Of a stretch of DNA of 39,306 nt, positions 4,483 through 19,851 are shown in pieces; position 1 is the stretch's first letter; every line of letters begins with the position of its first letter. Location: assembly GCA_017474925.1 (NCBI GenBank), contig JAFVGN010000043.1:1-39306 (forward strand), written 5' to 3'. Below the pieces are notes generated by a model. The model ran no database searches, had not been told where the DNA came from, and was given only the letters and a program-made list of their open reading frames with translations. The position numbers were made by a program, and so were the translations under genes. The DNA comes from Prevotella sp. GTDB taxonomy: Bacteria; Bacteroidota; Bacteroidia; Bacteroidales; Bacteroidaceae.

Positions 4483-7400
4483 TTATTCTATCACAGGCTC
4501 CTCTGCGAAGTCGATGACGTTCTTACGATTAGCCTGCATGCGTTCGTACTCTTCCTTCGAGCCGACGATAATCTTCTCGAACTCGCGAAGACCAGTTCCT
4601 GCAGGAATCAAGTGTCCGGAGATAACATTCTCCTTCATACCTTCCAAATGGTCCTCCTTGCCACGGATAGCGGCCTCATTGAGCACCTTGGTGGTCTCCT
4701 GGAACGAGGCGGCAGACATGAACGACTTCGTCTGCAAAGCAGCACGGGTGATACCCTGCAGAATCTGGGTCGACGTTGCAGGAACGGCATCGCGCACCTG
4801 TACAATCTTCATATCACGGCGCTTCAGAGCAGAGTTCTCGTCGCGCAGCTTGCGGGCTGTAACAATCTGGCCCTTCTGCAGGTTCTCAGAATCACCAGCA
4901 TCGATGACCACTTTCTTACCCCAGATACGGTCGTTCTCTTCTGCGAAGTCAAGCTTGTCGACAATTTCCTGCTCAAGGAATGCCGTATCGCCCGGATCGT
5001 TAATTTGAACTTTACGCATCATCTGGCGGACAATAATCTCAAAGTGCTTGTCGTTGATCTTCACACCCTGGAGACGATAGACGTCCTGCACCTCGTTGAC
5101 GATATATTCCTGTACGGCCGTGGGACCCTTAATGGCCAGGATGTCGGCAGGTGTGATGACACCGTCAGACAGCGGTGTACCAGCGCGCACAGCATCGTGC
5201 TCCTGTACCAGGATCTGCTTCGACAGCGATACAAGATACTTGCGCTGTTCACCAGTCTTAGAGGTGACAATAATTTCACGATTACCACGCTTCACCTTAC
5301 CCATGGTCACCTCACCGTCGATTTCTGAGACGATAGCGGGGTTCGACGGGTTGCGAGCCTCGAAGAGCTCGGTAACACGAGGCAGACCACCAGTGATATC
5401 ACCACCCTTGGCAGCAGCACGCGGAATCTTAACCAGCGTTTCACCAGTCTTGACGGTCTGGCCGTCTTCGACTACTACGTGTCCACCCACAGGGAAGTTA
5501 TAAGTTCCGATAACCTCACCATTTGCTCCTATGACATCGCAAGTTGGAACCCTTGACCTATCCTTGGATTCTGTGACGATTTTCTCTGTTAAACCTGTTG
5601 TTTCATCGGTCTCGGCACGGAAGGTGATACCTTCAATGACATCATGGAACTTCAACATACCGGCATACTCGGTCACAATGACAGCATTGAAGGGATCCCA
5701 CTGGGCAATCTTAGCACCCTTCTTGACTGTATCACCGTTTTTATAATAAAGTGATGAACCATAAGGAACATTGACCGAGGAGAGAACAATCTTTGTGTTA
5801 ACATCGACGAAGCGCAGTTCACCCAAACGGCTGACCACCATCTCGCAATCGCGACCGTCCTCATCGAACGGAACAGTACGTACCTCCTCAAGTTCAATCT
5901 TCGAATCGTTCTTGGCAACAATGCTGGCATTTGCGGCAGCATTTGCAGCCACACCACCGGCGTGGAACGTACGCAGCGTCAACTGAGTACCAGGTTCACC
6001 AATAGCCTGAGCAGCTATGACACCGACAGCCTCACCTTTCTGAACCATTCGACGGGTTGCAAGGTTGCGTCCATAACACTTCATGCAGACGCCGTGACGC
6101 GACTCGCAGGTGAGCACCGAACGAATCTCGACACTCTCAATCGGAGAGTCCTCGATAGCCTGGGCAACGGGTTCTGTGATTTCTTCACCAGCACCTACTA
6201 TGAGTTCACCTGTTGAGGGGTGAATGATATCATGTACGGACACACGGCCCAAGATGCGTTCATAGAGCGTTGAGATAACCTCATCGCCATTTTTCAAAGC
6301 AGTACAGACCAGACCGCGCAGCGTGCCGCAGTCCTCTTCGTTGATAATCACATCGTGTGACACGTCAACCAGACGGCGAGTCAGATAACCTGCGTCAGCA
6401 GTCTTCATGGCAGTATCAGCCAAGCCTTTACGGGCACCGTGAGTAGAGATAAAATACTCCAGCACAGACATACCTTCCTTGAAGTTCGACAGAATCGGGT
6501 TCTCAATAATCTGAGCACCTTCTGCACCTGCCTTCTGGGGCTTAGCCATCAGACCACGCATACCAGAAAGCTGACGGATCTGATCCTTACTACCACGGGC
6601 ACCAGAGTCAAGCATCATGAATACAGCATTGAAGCCCTGATCAGCCTCTGTCATTTCCTTCATCAGCACATTACCGAGGTCATTGTTGATATGAGTCCAA
6701 GTATCGATAACCTGATTGTAACGCTCATTGTCCGTAATAAAGCCCATGTTATAGTTCTCGGTAATCTGCTGGACCTCAGCATTTCCCTTCTCCACCAGAT
6801 CTTTCTTTGACTCAGGAATGATGATATCATCAAGGTTGAAAGAAAGACCGGCTTCATAAGCCATACGGTAACCGAGGTTTTTAATACCATCCAGGAATTC
6901 GCAAGCTTCAGCAAAGCCAACGTTCTTAATCACATCGGCAATAATGTCGCGCAAGGATTTTTTAGAGATAATCTTGTTAACATAACCCACTTCCTTAGGA
7001 ATAATGCCATTCACAATGACACGACCGACAGAAGTTTCAACCATACGCTTCACACGCTTGCCGTCAACAATATCATCAACTATCACATTCACTTGGGCAT
7101 GAAGGTCACATTTTCCTTCGTTGTGGGCAATGATAGCCTCTTCCGGACCATAGAAAGTCAGTCCCTCGCCCTTAGCCCCTGGGCGGATTTTCGAAATATA
7201 GTACAAGCCGAGCACCATATCCTGTGAAGGCACAGTGATAGGAGCACCGTTAGCGGGGTTCAGGATATTATGGCTCTGAAGCATCAGAATCTGTGCCTCG
7301 AGGATAGCCTCGTTGGAAAGGGGAAGGTGAACAGCCATCTGGTCACCATCAAAGTCAGCATTGAATGCAGTACAAGCCAACGGATGGAGCTGAATAGCCT

Positions 7401-8805
7401 TACCTTCGATTAATTTGGGCTGGAAGGCCTGAATACCAAGACGGTGCAACGTTGGTGCACGGTTGAGGAGCACAGGATGGCCTTTCATGACATTCTCCAG
7501 GATATCCCAAATAACGGGTTCGCGACGGTCGACAATCTTCTTAGCGGACTTCACGGTCTTGACGATACCGCGCTCAATGAGCTTACGGATGATAAATGGC
7601 TTATAAAGTTCTGCTGCCATCAGTTTGGGCAGACCACACTCACCCATCTTCAGCTCAGGGCCGACCACGATGACCGAACGGGCTGAGTAGTCGACACGCT
7701 TACCGAGCAAGTTCTGACGGAAACGTCCCTGCTTACCCTTCAGCGAATCTGAGAGTGACTTCAGCGGGCGGTTGGAATCGCTCTTTACAGCAGAAGATTT
7801 ACGGCTGTTGTCAAACAAAGAGTCAACAGCTTCCTGCAGCATACGCTTCTCATTACGAAGGATAACCTCAGGAGCATGAATCTCAATAAGTCTCTTCAGA
7901 CGATTGTTACGAATAATGACACGACGATAGAGATCATTCAGATCAGAAGTTGCAAAGCGACCACCATCCAGAGGAACAAGAGGACGCAGTTCAGGTGGAG
8001 TGACTGGAATAATCTTCATAATCATCCATTCCGGACGGTTAATGCCCTTCTCAACACTTGAACGGAAAGCCTCAACAACCTGAAGGCGCTTCAAAGCCTC
8101 ATTTTTGCGCTGTACAGAAGAGTCGCTGTTGGCACGGTCGCGCAGTTCATAGCTCAGTGAGTCAAGGTCGAGACGCATCAGCAGGTCGTAGATAGCCTCA
8201 GCACCCATCTTGGCAATGAACTTATTGGGGTCGCTGTCTTCCAGATAATCGTTGTTCTCAGAAACATAATTGTCAAGAATCTCGTTATACTCCTCCTCAG
8301 AGAGCAGGTCAAACTTCTGTGAGCCAATGAATGGATTACCCTCGCCGTCCTTCTTACCAGCCATAACACCCGGCTGGATAACAACGTAACGCTCATAGTA
8401 AATAACTGCATCGAGCTTCTTGGTAGGCAGCCCCAACAGATAGCCAATCTTGTTTGGCAGACTACGGAAGTACCAGATGTGAGCAACGGGGACCACCAAC
8501 TCTATATGACCCGTACGCTCACGACGTACCTTCTTTTCTGTCACCTCCACACCACAACGGTCGCAGACGATGCCTTTGTATCGGATGCGCTTATACTTTC
8601 CGCAGGCACATTCATAGTCCTTTGTAGGACCGAATATGCGCTCACAGAACAAACCGTCACGTTCGGGCTTATAGGTACGATAATTAATGGTCTCAGGCTT
8701 GGTGACCTCACCAAACGAACTCTCGAGAATCTCTTCTGGTGATGCCAGTCCGATGGTAATCTTGGTGAAATTACTCTTTATCTTTGTATCTTTCTTGAAA
8801 GCCAT
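4483..8805 (-). CDS. rpoC: DNA-directed RNA polymerase subunit beta' (RpoC)
   Basis: The catalytic beta' subunit of RNA polymerase, about 1440 residues. An N-terminal zinc site (Cys at about 66, 68, 81 and 84) is followed by the active-site motif [10 protein letters not shown] (about 482-491), whose three Asp hold magnesium. The trigger-loop region ([16 protein letters not shown]) and the second zinc cluster ([15 protein letters not shown]) are intact. I start at the ATG at 8805 (MAFKKDTK). An in-frame TTG nine bases upstream is a less likely start. The 38-base spacer after rpoB carries a heptamer repeat. It ends in FAEEPVIE. Confidence 0.98.
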
Positions 8806-8838
8806 AATTTTCAATTTTCAATTTTCAATAATCAATTA
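8806..8838. repeat. Heptamer tandem repeat in the rpoB-rpoC spacer
   Basis: Three exact copies of AATTTTC (8806-8812, 8813-8819, 8820-8826) are followed by the degenerate units AATAATC and AATTACC. The period is exactly seven. It fills almost the whole spacer and provides the A-rich sequence just upstream of the rpoC ATG. Confidence 0.75.
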
Positions 8839-17630: not shown

Positions 17631-17930
17631 TTATCTATTTCTCAATTTTTCCTTAAATTTCTGCAGCTGAACCCGCATCGAGTCCACACAAAGGTCGGTA
17701 CTTTCCTCAAAAGTGTCACTCACTTTCTCAACGAAAAGCGTTGAGCCTGGTACTGTGACCGTCAGGCTAACCTCTTTGTTTTGCGCCGTTGCAGGCTTTA
17801 CCACCTTGCATTGCACCTCTACTTTCTGAATATCTTCAAATGTTTTTTCCAACTTGGCGACCTTCTTGTCGATGAACGCCTGTAATTTCTCGGTAGCGTC
17901 GAAGTGAATCGACTGAATCTTAATTTCCAT
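17631..17930 (-). CDS. hpf: Ribosome hibernation-promoting factor (short HPF/RaiA family)
   Basis: A 99-residue protein of the short HPF/YfiA family, which binds the decoding region of idle 30S subunits and protects resting ribosomes. Typical features are MEIKIQSIHFDATEKLQAFIDK, the following lysine-rich helix, and the DLCVDSMRVQLQKFK helix. No dimerising C-terminal domain is present. It is the third gene of rpsU-xerC-hpf. A perfect AGGAGGT lies 4 bases before the ATG, the only such site I found in the window, so its translation is probably controlled differently from its neighbours. Confidence 0.9.
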   Translation of the reverse strand: MEIKIQSIHFDATEKLQAFIDKKVAKLEKTFEDIQKVEVQCKVVKPATAQNKEVSLTVTVPGSTLFVEKVSDTFEESTDLCVDSMRVQLQKFKEKLRNR

Positions 17931-17934
17931 AGTT

Positions 17935-17941
17935 ACCTCCT
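17935..17941 (-). promoter_or_regulatory. Perfect Shine-Dalgarno of hpf
   Basis: On the minus strand AGGAGGT is followed by AACT and the ATG at 17930. The spacing is optimal for pairing with the 3' end of 16S rRNA. Upstream regions of the other genes here are A-rich with at most AAGGA. In Bacteroidetes the anti-Shine-Dalgarno is normally hidden on the ribosome, so this site stands out. Confidence 0.85.
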
Positions 17942-17969
17942 ATTTTTATTAAAGGGTAAATAATTAGGG

Positions 17970-18854
17970 TCAGGCCCTAGGGTGGGCTTTCCCATATACT
18001 CGTTTCAACTGTTCAAACGTCGTATGCGTATAGATTTCCGTAGTTGCTACACTCTCATGTCCCAAAAGCTTGCGCACGCTCTCCAATCCTGCGCCATTAT
18101 TCAACATAGCCGTAGCAAACGTATGACGAAGCACATGTGGCGATCGTTTTTTCAGGGTTGTTACCTTCGAGAGGTAGGCAACGACAATTTTTTCAACCTG
18201 GTAACGCGAAATACGACATCCTTTGTCATTCAGCAGCAAGGCGGATTCTATTTTTAGGGATTGCTCGTCGCGCAGCCGGATATACTCTTTGAGCACACGC
18301 TCGAGTTCATCTCCAAAAGGAATGATGCGCTGTTTGTTTCTCTTACCTGTCACCTTGAGATGATGCTGGACGAAATCCACGTCGTTGTCATCCAAGCCAA
18401 CCAATTCTGCCAAACGGATTCCTGTCTCATAGAATATAATAATAATGGTACGCGCGCGCAAAGCATCATAGCCATCTCCCCACATCTGCTCACCGTCTAT
18501 CAGCCTATCCATATCCGCTTCACGCAAATACATCGGCAACGGCTTTTGCTTTTTCGGTCCTTTCACCGTGTGGGCAGGATCTTTACATACCAACCCACGA
18601 CTAAGTGCAAAACGGAAAAAAGAACGCACGGCACTCAACGAGTTATTCACTGTTGATGCCATGTCGCCTTTATCCATCATGCTCTCCATCCAATCACGGA
18701 TTAAGTCCGAGTCTACCGACTCCCATGAGAGATGATTTTCTCGATTTTTGAAATACGACTCAAAGTCTTTCAGACTCTTCTCGTAATTGCGTACAGTCAA
18801 TTCGGATCGATTCCGCTCGTAACGCAAGTAGTTCAAAAAATCTTCTATCACCAT
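17970..18854 (-). CDS. xerC: Tyrosine recombinase of the XerC/XerD type
   Basis: A 294-residue site-specific recombinase. The N-terminal SAM-like core-binding domain covers about 1-90. The catalytic domain has all expected residues: Arg147 (ETGIRLAE), Lys171 (GKRNKQR), His240 and Arg243 (HVLRHTFAT), His266 (LLGHESV) and the nucleophile Tyr275 (IYTHT). The length and its housekeeping position between rpsU and hpf fit a chromosome-dimer resolvase that acts at dif, rather than an integrase. XerC versus XerD cannot be settled from this sequence alone. The ATG at 18854 has no Shine-Dalgarno. Confidence 0.85.
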   Translation of the reverse strand: MVIEDFLNYLRYERNRSELTVRNYEKSLKDFESYFKNRENHLSWESVDSDLIRDWMESMMDKGDMASTVNNSLSAVRSFFRFALSRGLVCKDPAHTVKGPKKQKPLPMYLREADMDRLIDGEQMWGDGYDALRARTIIIIFYETGIRLAELVGLDDNDVDFVQHHLKVTGKRNKQRIIPFGDELERVLKEYIRLRDEQSLKIESALLLNDKGCRISRYQVEKIVVAYLSKVTTLKKRSPHVLRHTFATAMLNNGAGLESVRKLLGHESVATTEIYTHTTFEQLKRVYGKAHPRA

Positions 18855-18998: not shown

Positions 18999-19190
18999 TT
19001 ACTCCTCTGTGGCACGAAGCTTCTGTACGTAGATGGCATGCTCCATCTTCAGGCGCTTCAGTACAGAGGGCTTGTCGAACTGCTGACGAGCACGAAGCTC
19101 CTTGATAACACCAGTCTTTTCGAACTTTCTCTTAAACTTCTTGAGGGCCTTCTCGATGTTCTCGCCTTCTTTTACGGGTACAATAATCAT
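18999..19190 (-). CDS. rpsU: 30S ribosomal protein S21 (bS21)
   Basis: A 63-residue, very basic protein beginning MIIVPVKEGENIEKALKKFK, typical of bS21. The frame stays open upstream, but the ATG at 19190 gives the family start, and the extension is low-complexity leader sequence. In Bacteroidetes bS21 helps cover the anti-Shine-Dalgarno of 16S rRNA. Unlike what is reported for Flavobacterium, I see no Shine-Dalgarno here (AAAAAGCAA precedes the ATG). It leads the rpsU-xerC-hpf operon behind a leader of about 160 bases. Confidence 0.93.
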   Translation of the reverse strand: MIIVPVKEGENIEKALKKFKRKFEKTGVIKELRARQQFDKPSVLKRLKMEHAIYVQKLRATEE

Positions 19191-19338
19191 TTGCTTTTTG
19201 GTTTTAATTTTTAAATTGTTATTACGATGTTTCAATGATTCCAGGCACAAGTGCCACGAAAATCTTTTTTCTAAAACAATGCTGGCCAAAAGCAGCAAAA
19301 ACTTGTTTTTATGCCGAGGCAAAGCCTGTTTTCTAAGA

Positions 19339-19355
19339 CGCATTTTCAAAATGCG
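19339..19355 (-). promoter_or_regulatory. Palindrome at the start of the rpsU leader
   Basis: CGCATTTT and AAAATGCG surround a single C. The element lies immediately downstream of the -7 element at 19360-19367, at the expected transcription start. It could form a 5'-terminal hairpin or bind a dimeric regulator. Confidence 0.45.
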
Positions 19356-19359
19356 GGTG

Positions 19360-19390
19360 CAAAGTTACAACATTTTAACCAAACAGCCAA
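19360..19390 (-). promoter_or_regulatory. Promoter of rpsU-xerC-hpf
   Basis: On the minus strand the order is TTG (19388-19390), 20 bases, TAACTTTG (19360-19367), a good match to the Bacteroidetes consensus. The transcript would carry a leader of about 160 bases before rpsU. Confidence 0.75.
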
Positions 19391-19656
19391 GTTTTTTTGT
19401 GACTTTTTGCATCCTCAGCAATCGATTTTATTCTTTCTTCTCCGAACAGGGTCTTGGTTTCCCGTGTTTCTCCCAATCATAATAGCCAAGAATTGTCACC
19501 AAAGACTTAAGAATCACCGCACAAACACTATTCACAGAACAACCAATTACGATGAAAACAAGAGGCAACTACCCTACACGAGAGATTGTTTAGTTAAAAT
19601 ATCATAAATATAGAGTTCCAAACTTTCTTAACGCGCTTTTTTAGAAAGAAAAGTAG
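19391..19656. other. Divergent intergenic region between rpsU and rplM
   Basis: About 265 AT-rich bases separate the minus-strand rpsU promoter from the plus-strand rplM promoter. I see no credible gene in it on either strand. It may hold binding sites for factors that control both divergent operons, but no clear repeat or operator is visible. Confidence 0.5.
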
Positions 19657-19670: not shown

Positions 19671-19851
19671 GATTTGGGGAGAGGCTTAGAATCCCCATAG
19701 AATCAGGGTGTGAATAGCGGCGTCTTTGGCCGGACGTGGTGGTTCGTGAATCGCTGGTTCAAAAATCCCGAAAGGGGCTACAACCTCCAAGGGAGCGTAC
19801 GTTAGACTAACAGCCGGGAGTTAGACCTCGGATGGGGTTATATGTGCGTAC
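19671..19851 (+). ncRNA. Structured 5' leader of rplM (candidate cis-regulatory RNA)
   Basis: About 180 bases that are much more GC-rich than the flanking intergenic DNA. Visible pairings are GATT-TGGGGA (19671-19680) with TCCCCA (19692-19697) and AATC (19701-19704); CGTC/GACG (19721-19724, 19733-19736); CCC-GAAA-GGG, a GNRA tetraloop hairpin (19767-19776); CTAAC/GTTAG (19807-19811, 19820-19824) nested in GTACG/CGTAC (19797-19801, 19847-19851). It lies between the -7 element and the rplM ATG. I infer autoregulation by a ribosomal protein of the operon. I cannot check whether a described RNA family covers it. Confidence 0.65.

Follow-up and report, generated by a model that had tools for sequence, protein, structure and literature searches.

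A conserved Shine-Dalgarno sequence before the hibernation factor gene hpf in Bacteroidales, a probable operon-internal initiation signal

Why Bacteroidia keep an anti-Shine-Dalgarno (anti-SD) sequence that is hidden is an open question, and the exceptions to their avoidance of Shine-Dalgarno (SD) sequences that are named in the available text of the closest studies (PMC9976891, PMC8710568, PMC3155529) are ribosomal protein genes. The best described case is rpsU, encoding bS21, which in Flavobacteriales and others carries an extended SD through which bS21 is autoregulated (PMC9976891). McNutt et al. (2023, PMC9976891) describe that ribosomes without bS21 favour strong SDs and, in F. johnsoniae, initiate worse on SD-less messages. 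In that species, a tuf reporter with AGGAGGU gave more than 2-fold GFP with bS21 delta-C and 70% more on bS21 depletion. Control by bS21 is tied there to extended pairing below -13 kcal/mol, and in the available text of the same paper no Bacteroidales meet the criteria for rpsU autoregulation. Closer to the organism studied here, the available text of Accetto and Avgustin (2011, PMC3155529) describes a reporter in P. bryantii that was not appreciably changed by adding or omitting an SD.

The locus that we compare with these systems lies in Prevotella sp. contig JAFVGN010000043.1 (assembly GCA_017474925.1), analysed over the 39,306 nucleotides that we call the window; its nearest named records, among the best 80 of 342 relatives, are mostly rumen Prevotella. 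On the minus strand, rpsU is followed by a gene for a XerC-like recombinase, by hpf, by four tRNA genes and by one more gene that, judged by the start of its protein, is presumably tuf. The first cistron, rpsU (18999-19190; PF01165, 3.2e-19), has no SD. Neither has the second (17970-18854; PF00589, 7.1e-37, and PF02899), a tyrosine recombinase gene that we label xerC as a name covering XerC and XerD alike. The third, hpf (17631-17930), encodes a protein of 99 aa with a single S30AE domain (PF02482, 8.4e-21, over positions 1-88) and PDB relatives named HPF or RaiA, and is thus a short ribosome hibernation promoting factor. The xerC stop is separated from the hpf ATG by 39 nt (17931-17969) in which, read directly from the minus strand, the SD AGGAGGT (17941-17935) stands 4 nt (AACT, 17934-17931) before the ATG (17930-17928) of the reading frame 17930-17631, exactly in sequence and position as the initial annotation had it. 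Two observations on the surroundings may be added. An L13-Bacteroidia ribosomal protein leader (RF03127, 67.1 bits) lies on the plus strand at 19676-19752, upstream of divergent genes, and a contig labelled Clostridiales bacterium (RGIG2767; locus L138), with an HPF 90% identical to that of the window and the same upstream layout, is probably mis-binned or mislabelled.

The site has the two attributes of an SD, complementarity to the 3' tail of the 16S rRNA and a distance of a few nucleotides from the start codon. The end of the 16S gene was not found in the source genome, whose assembly is incomplete, and pairing was computed with the Bacteroidota tail GGAACACCTCCTTTCT, present in 6 of 60 genomes of the order, one of them of the same family; the general bacterial tail GGATCACC, which is not the Bacteroidota form, matched in 0 of 198 genomes. 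With this tail AGGAGGT forms 7 bp at -11.6 kcal/mol (duplexfold energies), by far the strongest pairing among 28 window starts, a hand-picked set that leaves out some ORFs such as 4483-8814 with its TTG start. The next best start reaches -7.2 kcal/mol and rpsU -0.7, and 20 of the 28 have at least 10 A within their last 22 bases. The earlier description of the other window genes, rpsU included, as lacking an SD behind A-rich upstream regions is therefore borne out among the scored starts, with hpf as the only one that has a strong SD.

Of 198 Bacteroidales genomes searched, 175 had a match and 130 loci were fetched, 129 after one without an assignable start (L429) was dropped; the 45 matching genomes left out include the weakest and unlisted matches. 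Upstream of hpf, (A)GGAGG occurs in 104 of the 129 (81 AGGAGG and 23 GGAGG, at 3-10 nt), AGGAG only in nine and no motif in 16, and hpf pairs at -9 kcal/mol or better in 113. The same scoring finds (A)GGAGG at 0/119 xerC starts, 1/117 rpsU starts and in 0/128 mock windows taken 25 nt further upstream, although 30 of the 117 rpsU starts do pair at -9 kcal/mol or better despite the near absence of the motif. Comparison of the regions upstream of hpf and rpsU across Bacteroidales, along the lines of the check proposed with the initial annotation, shows the motif conserved at the former and next to absent at the latter. The first 30 loci were the best-scoring ones and later batches came from a weaker list, and the rates are similar (58/70 in the first 70, then 15/20 and 31/39). 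Among Prevotella-type loci, taken as the best 80 of 342 relatives, 77 carry (A)GGAGG before hpf, and GGAGG is five bases from the ATG in 76 of these 77; among the first 89 loci of the order, the spacing is 4-8 nt in the 72 that bear the motif. The gap between xerC and hpf is mostly 10-40 nt across the order, with some genes overlapping, and by eye the intergenic stretch outside the SD core visibly varies. In the wider class AGGAGG precedes 11 of the first 30 hpf loci, three of which belong to the same order, and in 55 rows with both starts, 23 hpf starts (six from the same order) reach -9 kcal/mol or better. We consider it somewhat probable, judging by these sequence comparisons, that the hpf AGGAGGT is a functional initiation signal maintained by selection across Bacteroidales; that it is instead an inherited SD without present function, kept by inertia or by an A/G-rich bias, would fit the general SD blindness of Bacteroidia ribosomes (available text of PMC9976891 and PMC3155529) but is highly improbable given a core kept in 104/129 genomes, against 0/128 in mock windows, amid a visibly variable intergenic stretch.

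From where is hpf transcribed? For 78 Prevotella-type loci (within the best 80 of 342), the 1500 nt preceding hpf were scanned with what we take to be the Bacteroidales promoter consensus, TTG followed by TAnnTTTG. Sites recurred in a single interval, 1200-1400 nt from hpf, which places them immediately ahead of rpsU; in the window the predicted promoter (TTG ... TAACTTTG) lies at 19360-19392 on the minus strand. Because the sole recurring promoter-like site precedes rpsU, the three genes are probably co-transcribed from one promoter as an rpsU-xerC-hpf operon, as the initial annotation had proposed for rpsU and hpf. Counting against co-transcription, the minus strand has three weak terminator-like matches, with 1.8 expected in shuffles, and one of them falls at the end of xerC (17979-17965). 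Between promoter and rpsU lies a leader (19191-19359) with predicted hairpins. Soon after the promoter, 43 of 71 distinct Prevotella-type rpsU leaders (within the best 80 of 342) have a GGC...GCC element, and 40 of these 43 begin with GCACCCGC. The constancy of the stem is no evidence of structure, because the 43 leaders were selected by that very pattern; when they were folded together no real covariation appeared, the outer pairs being mostly U-A versus U-G with some mismatches, and a comparison of the leader with Rfam gave no match beyond one chance-level hit. Its role might be that of a bS21 leader RNA or of a DNA site, or it might have none.

Genome-wide, hpf is not alone. The initial annotation had singled it out, which is correct within the window; in a sample of about 439 kb of the 2.28 Mb source genome, (A)GGAGG stands at a possible start in 14 of 334 genes, and the pairing energy of hpf ranks sixth among the 334. 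Many equal sites elsewhere had been named as a result that would speak against the earlier idea, and sites at other genes do exist: a small set, 30 of 990 genes in pooled samples of seven Bacteroidales genomes. In the source sample these genes include rpsR, rplI and genes for ExbD, UvrA, a glycosyltransferase, polysaccharide synthesis, BspA-like repeats, an FMN-binding protein and an Rnf-Nqr (Nqr-type) protein, roles that are unrelated to each other. The FMN-binding gene (L250:4076-4750, minus strand), presumably NqrC-like, has the strongest pairing of those listed, -17.8 kcal/mol, stronger than hpf.

What the members of this set mainly share is their position. In the seven genomes, 25 of 435 starts lying at most 60 nt from an upstream gene on the same strand have an SD, versus 2 of 397 starts that are first or more distant (p = 6e-6) and 3 of 120 at 61-150 nt; with mock motifs the bias is absent (6/435 vs 6/397). 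These gene calls are mechanical and crude (the longest ORFs were taken, with any ATG allowed as start within the first quarter and no further in than 40 codons), and start calls are possibly less exact at first genes. The source genome by itself gives 12/165 operon-internal versus 0/122 first or distant starts (p = 0.001), and another genome, G364, 6/98 versus 1/64, which is not significant (p = 0.16). The same pattern appears within a single operon when, of 77 rpsR loci, the 30 that score best are compared: the first gene, rpsF, has an SD in 0/27, the second, rpsR, in 16/29 and the third, rplI, in 22/30. From the bias and from this pattern, therefore, hpf belongs to an existing small set of SD genes whose rule is mainly operon position, and the distinctness that had been claimed for it gives way to that of operon-internal genes of unrelated roles. 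Position may not be everything. Most operon-internal genes (410/435) have no SD, including in the window those that, from operon order, we take to be rplA, rplJ, rplL and rpsI. Conversely, no SD site was found in the samples of two genomes from two other families, G133 (144 genes) and G021 (74 genes), despite which their hpf carries AAAGGAGG. Together with a gene fusion described below, these observations speak for something beyond position that may matter.

The explanation that we favour, with moderate confidence and on the strength of sequence comparison, is that the hpf SD initiates translation inside an operon and in this way sets how much HPF is made. Third on the probable rpsU-xerC-hpf transcript, hpf has an SD rightly spaced from its ATG and would be one of the small, mainly operon-internal set. 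A ribosome coming straight from translation of the preceding cistron, or a 30S subunit retained close by, would be near enough for even a mostly hidden anti-SD to pair, and because of this the HPF level could be set apart from that of the SD-less neighbours rpsU and xerC. Initiation would be mostly constitutive, with any gain in the absence of bS21 as a secondary effect, so that a response to bS21 is a possible consequence of the arrangement. The SD is rarer in the loci, only six in number, whose gap between xerC and hpf exceeds 40 nt (2/6 vs 101/121, p = 0.012).

A stronger proposal, made in the initial annotation, is that ribosomes short of bS21 expose their anti-SD and preferentially translate hpf, which would tie ribosome composition to hibernation. 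This is plausible but not required by the data, and we regard it as a tentative possibility. The bS21 of the window gives a gap-free alignment of 60 residues with that of PDB 7jil, which we take to be from F. johnsoniae, and has a tyrosine at position 54. Tyr54 is the residue mutated by McNutt et al. (PMC9976891), whose tuf'-gfp reporter led by AGGAGGU responds in F. johnsoniae when bS21 is mutated or depleted. The retention of the hpf SD in G133 and G021, with no other SD in their samples, and in a fused frame also points this way. However, the SD is not exclusive to hpf (14/334; 30/990), no SD has been swapped between rpsU and hpf in evolution, and the P. bryantii reporter is insensitive to an SD (PMC3155529). 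Pairing is also weaker than the range tied to bS21 control: with the caveat that our energies are from duplexfold and the published mark of -13 kcal/mol is from free_scan, hpf in the window (-11.6) falls in the rpsR range and short of that mark, which 47/129 genomes of the order and 1/80 Prevotella-type loci (best 80 of 342) reach, and rpsU in the window lies outside the bS21-autoregulated class both in SD location and in pairing below -13 kcal/mol. As some other operon-internal genes also keep an SD, a dedicated dormancy switch is unproven. Should HPF indeed rise when bS21 is lost, dormancy in common gut and rumen bacteria would be under the direct control of ribosome composition.

A variant with two ribosome populations, in which bS21-complete ribosomes would favour rpsU and bS21-lacking ones the SD-led hpf, is in our view doubtful. 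Because ribosomes lacking bS21 initiate worse on SD-less messages, a shortage would both lower bS21 and raise HPF. If true, the gene order of the operon would itself drive cells into hibernation through positive feedback, an arrangement conserved in much of Bacteroidales. Our literature search found no report, in these bacteria, of bS21 falling in dormancy or of HPF then rising.

Unlikely, too, is pure termination-reinitiation, in which the SD would merely recapture ribosomes ending xerC and so fix the XerC:HPF ratio. It would agree with the operon-internal bias (25/435 vs 2/397), with the gap dependence (2/6 beyond 40 nt vs 101/121) and with ten SD-bearing loci in which xerC and hpf overlap by 4-17 nt. 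Against it stands the fusion L052:607-1791 (plus strand), in which the XerC-like recombinase and HPF are one open frame of 395 aa (junction ...AHPRAEKKEDI-MDVRIQ...) with the SD encoded inside. As xerC and hpf are uninterrupted here, no stop and restart is possible, and the retained SD therefore argues against pure stop-restart coupling; it also counts against the operon-internal dosage reading. Separate HPF could come from the fused frame only via initiation inside it or via cleavage. A second XerC-HPF fusion, known from the protein alone, also tells against reinitiation: chain 14 of PDB 9i5v (9i5v_14; 401 aa, deposited as RaiA), for which our search found no paper, has the same build as L052, with Lys-Lys-Glu-Glu directly before the HPF start.

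Two further candidates were rejected. The idea that the SD had moved from rpsU to hpf finds no footing in the order, where hpf pairs at -9 kcal/mol or better in 24/29 genomes with good rpsU pairing and in 78/87 without, or in the class, where it pairs well in 7/14 with a good rpsU SD and in 16/41 without (55 rows, six from the same order); some genomes (L305, L309, L325) have an SD on both genes. As for a hairpin hiding the SD, the hpf SD of Prevotella-type loci (within the best 80 of 342) is predicted to be somewhat more paired than when the sequence upstream of it is shuffled (mean unpaired value 0.23 vs 0.33, lower than shuffles in 64/77). This was not borne out across the order (36/72), and we have not built upon it because the 77 loci are closely related. 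At 17931-17990 on the minus strand, an upstream TTACC can pair with GGTAA at the SD in a possible SD-hiding hairpin, both elements being present in 34/77 Prevotella-type loci (within the best 80 of 342) and in 1/72 order loci.

How, then, does hpf compare with the described systems? In the open literature searched by title and start of abstract, a scope outside which supplements with gene lists fall, we found no earlier description of such an SD on hpf of Bacteroidales, and the main texts of PMC9976891 and PMC8710568 do not contain the term "hpf". With its SD conserved throughout much of the order, this hibernation factor gene is a nonribosomal exception to the SD avoidance of Bacteroidia, and the concentration of SDs at operon-internal starts in the sampled genomes offers a testable rule for the use of a hidden anti-SD. 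The SD-function loss described for P. bryantii, of the same genus group, in the available text of PMC3155529 agrees with the A-rich upstream regions and missing SDs of most genes in the window; hpf goes unmentioned in that text. With the rpsU system of Flavobacteriales, as far as the available text of PMC9976891 goes, the hpf SD shares its occurrence as a strong SD amid SD avoidance and the same motif core; however, that SD is on rpsU, with 9-13 bp and -14 to -21 kcal/mol, whereas here it is on hpf, with 7 bp and -11.6 kcal/mol. As rpsU has no SD in the window, the hpf SD cannot feed back on bS21 in the Flavobacteriales manner. The closer likeness is to the SDs of rpsR and other ribosomal genes in Bacteroidales (Jha et al. 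2021, as presented in the available text of PMC9976891 and PMC8710568), which are likewise operon internal and conserved across the order. Median pairing is similar in sets of unequal size (rpsR -9.6, rplI -10.7 and hpf -12.2, for 29, 30 and 89 starts), being somewhat stronger for hpf, and the main difference is that hpf encodes no ribosomal protein.
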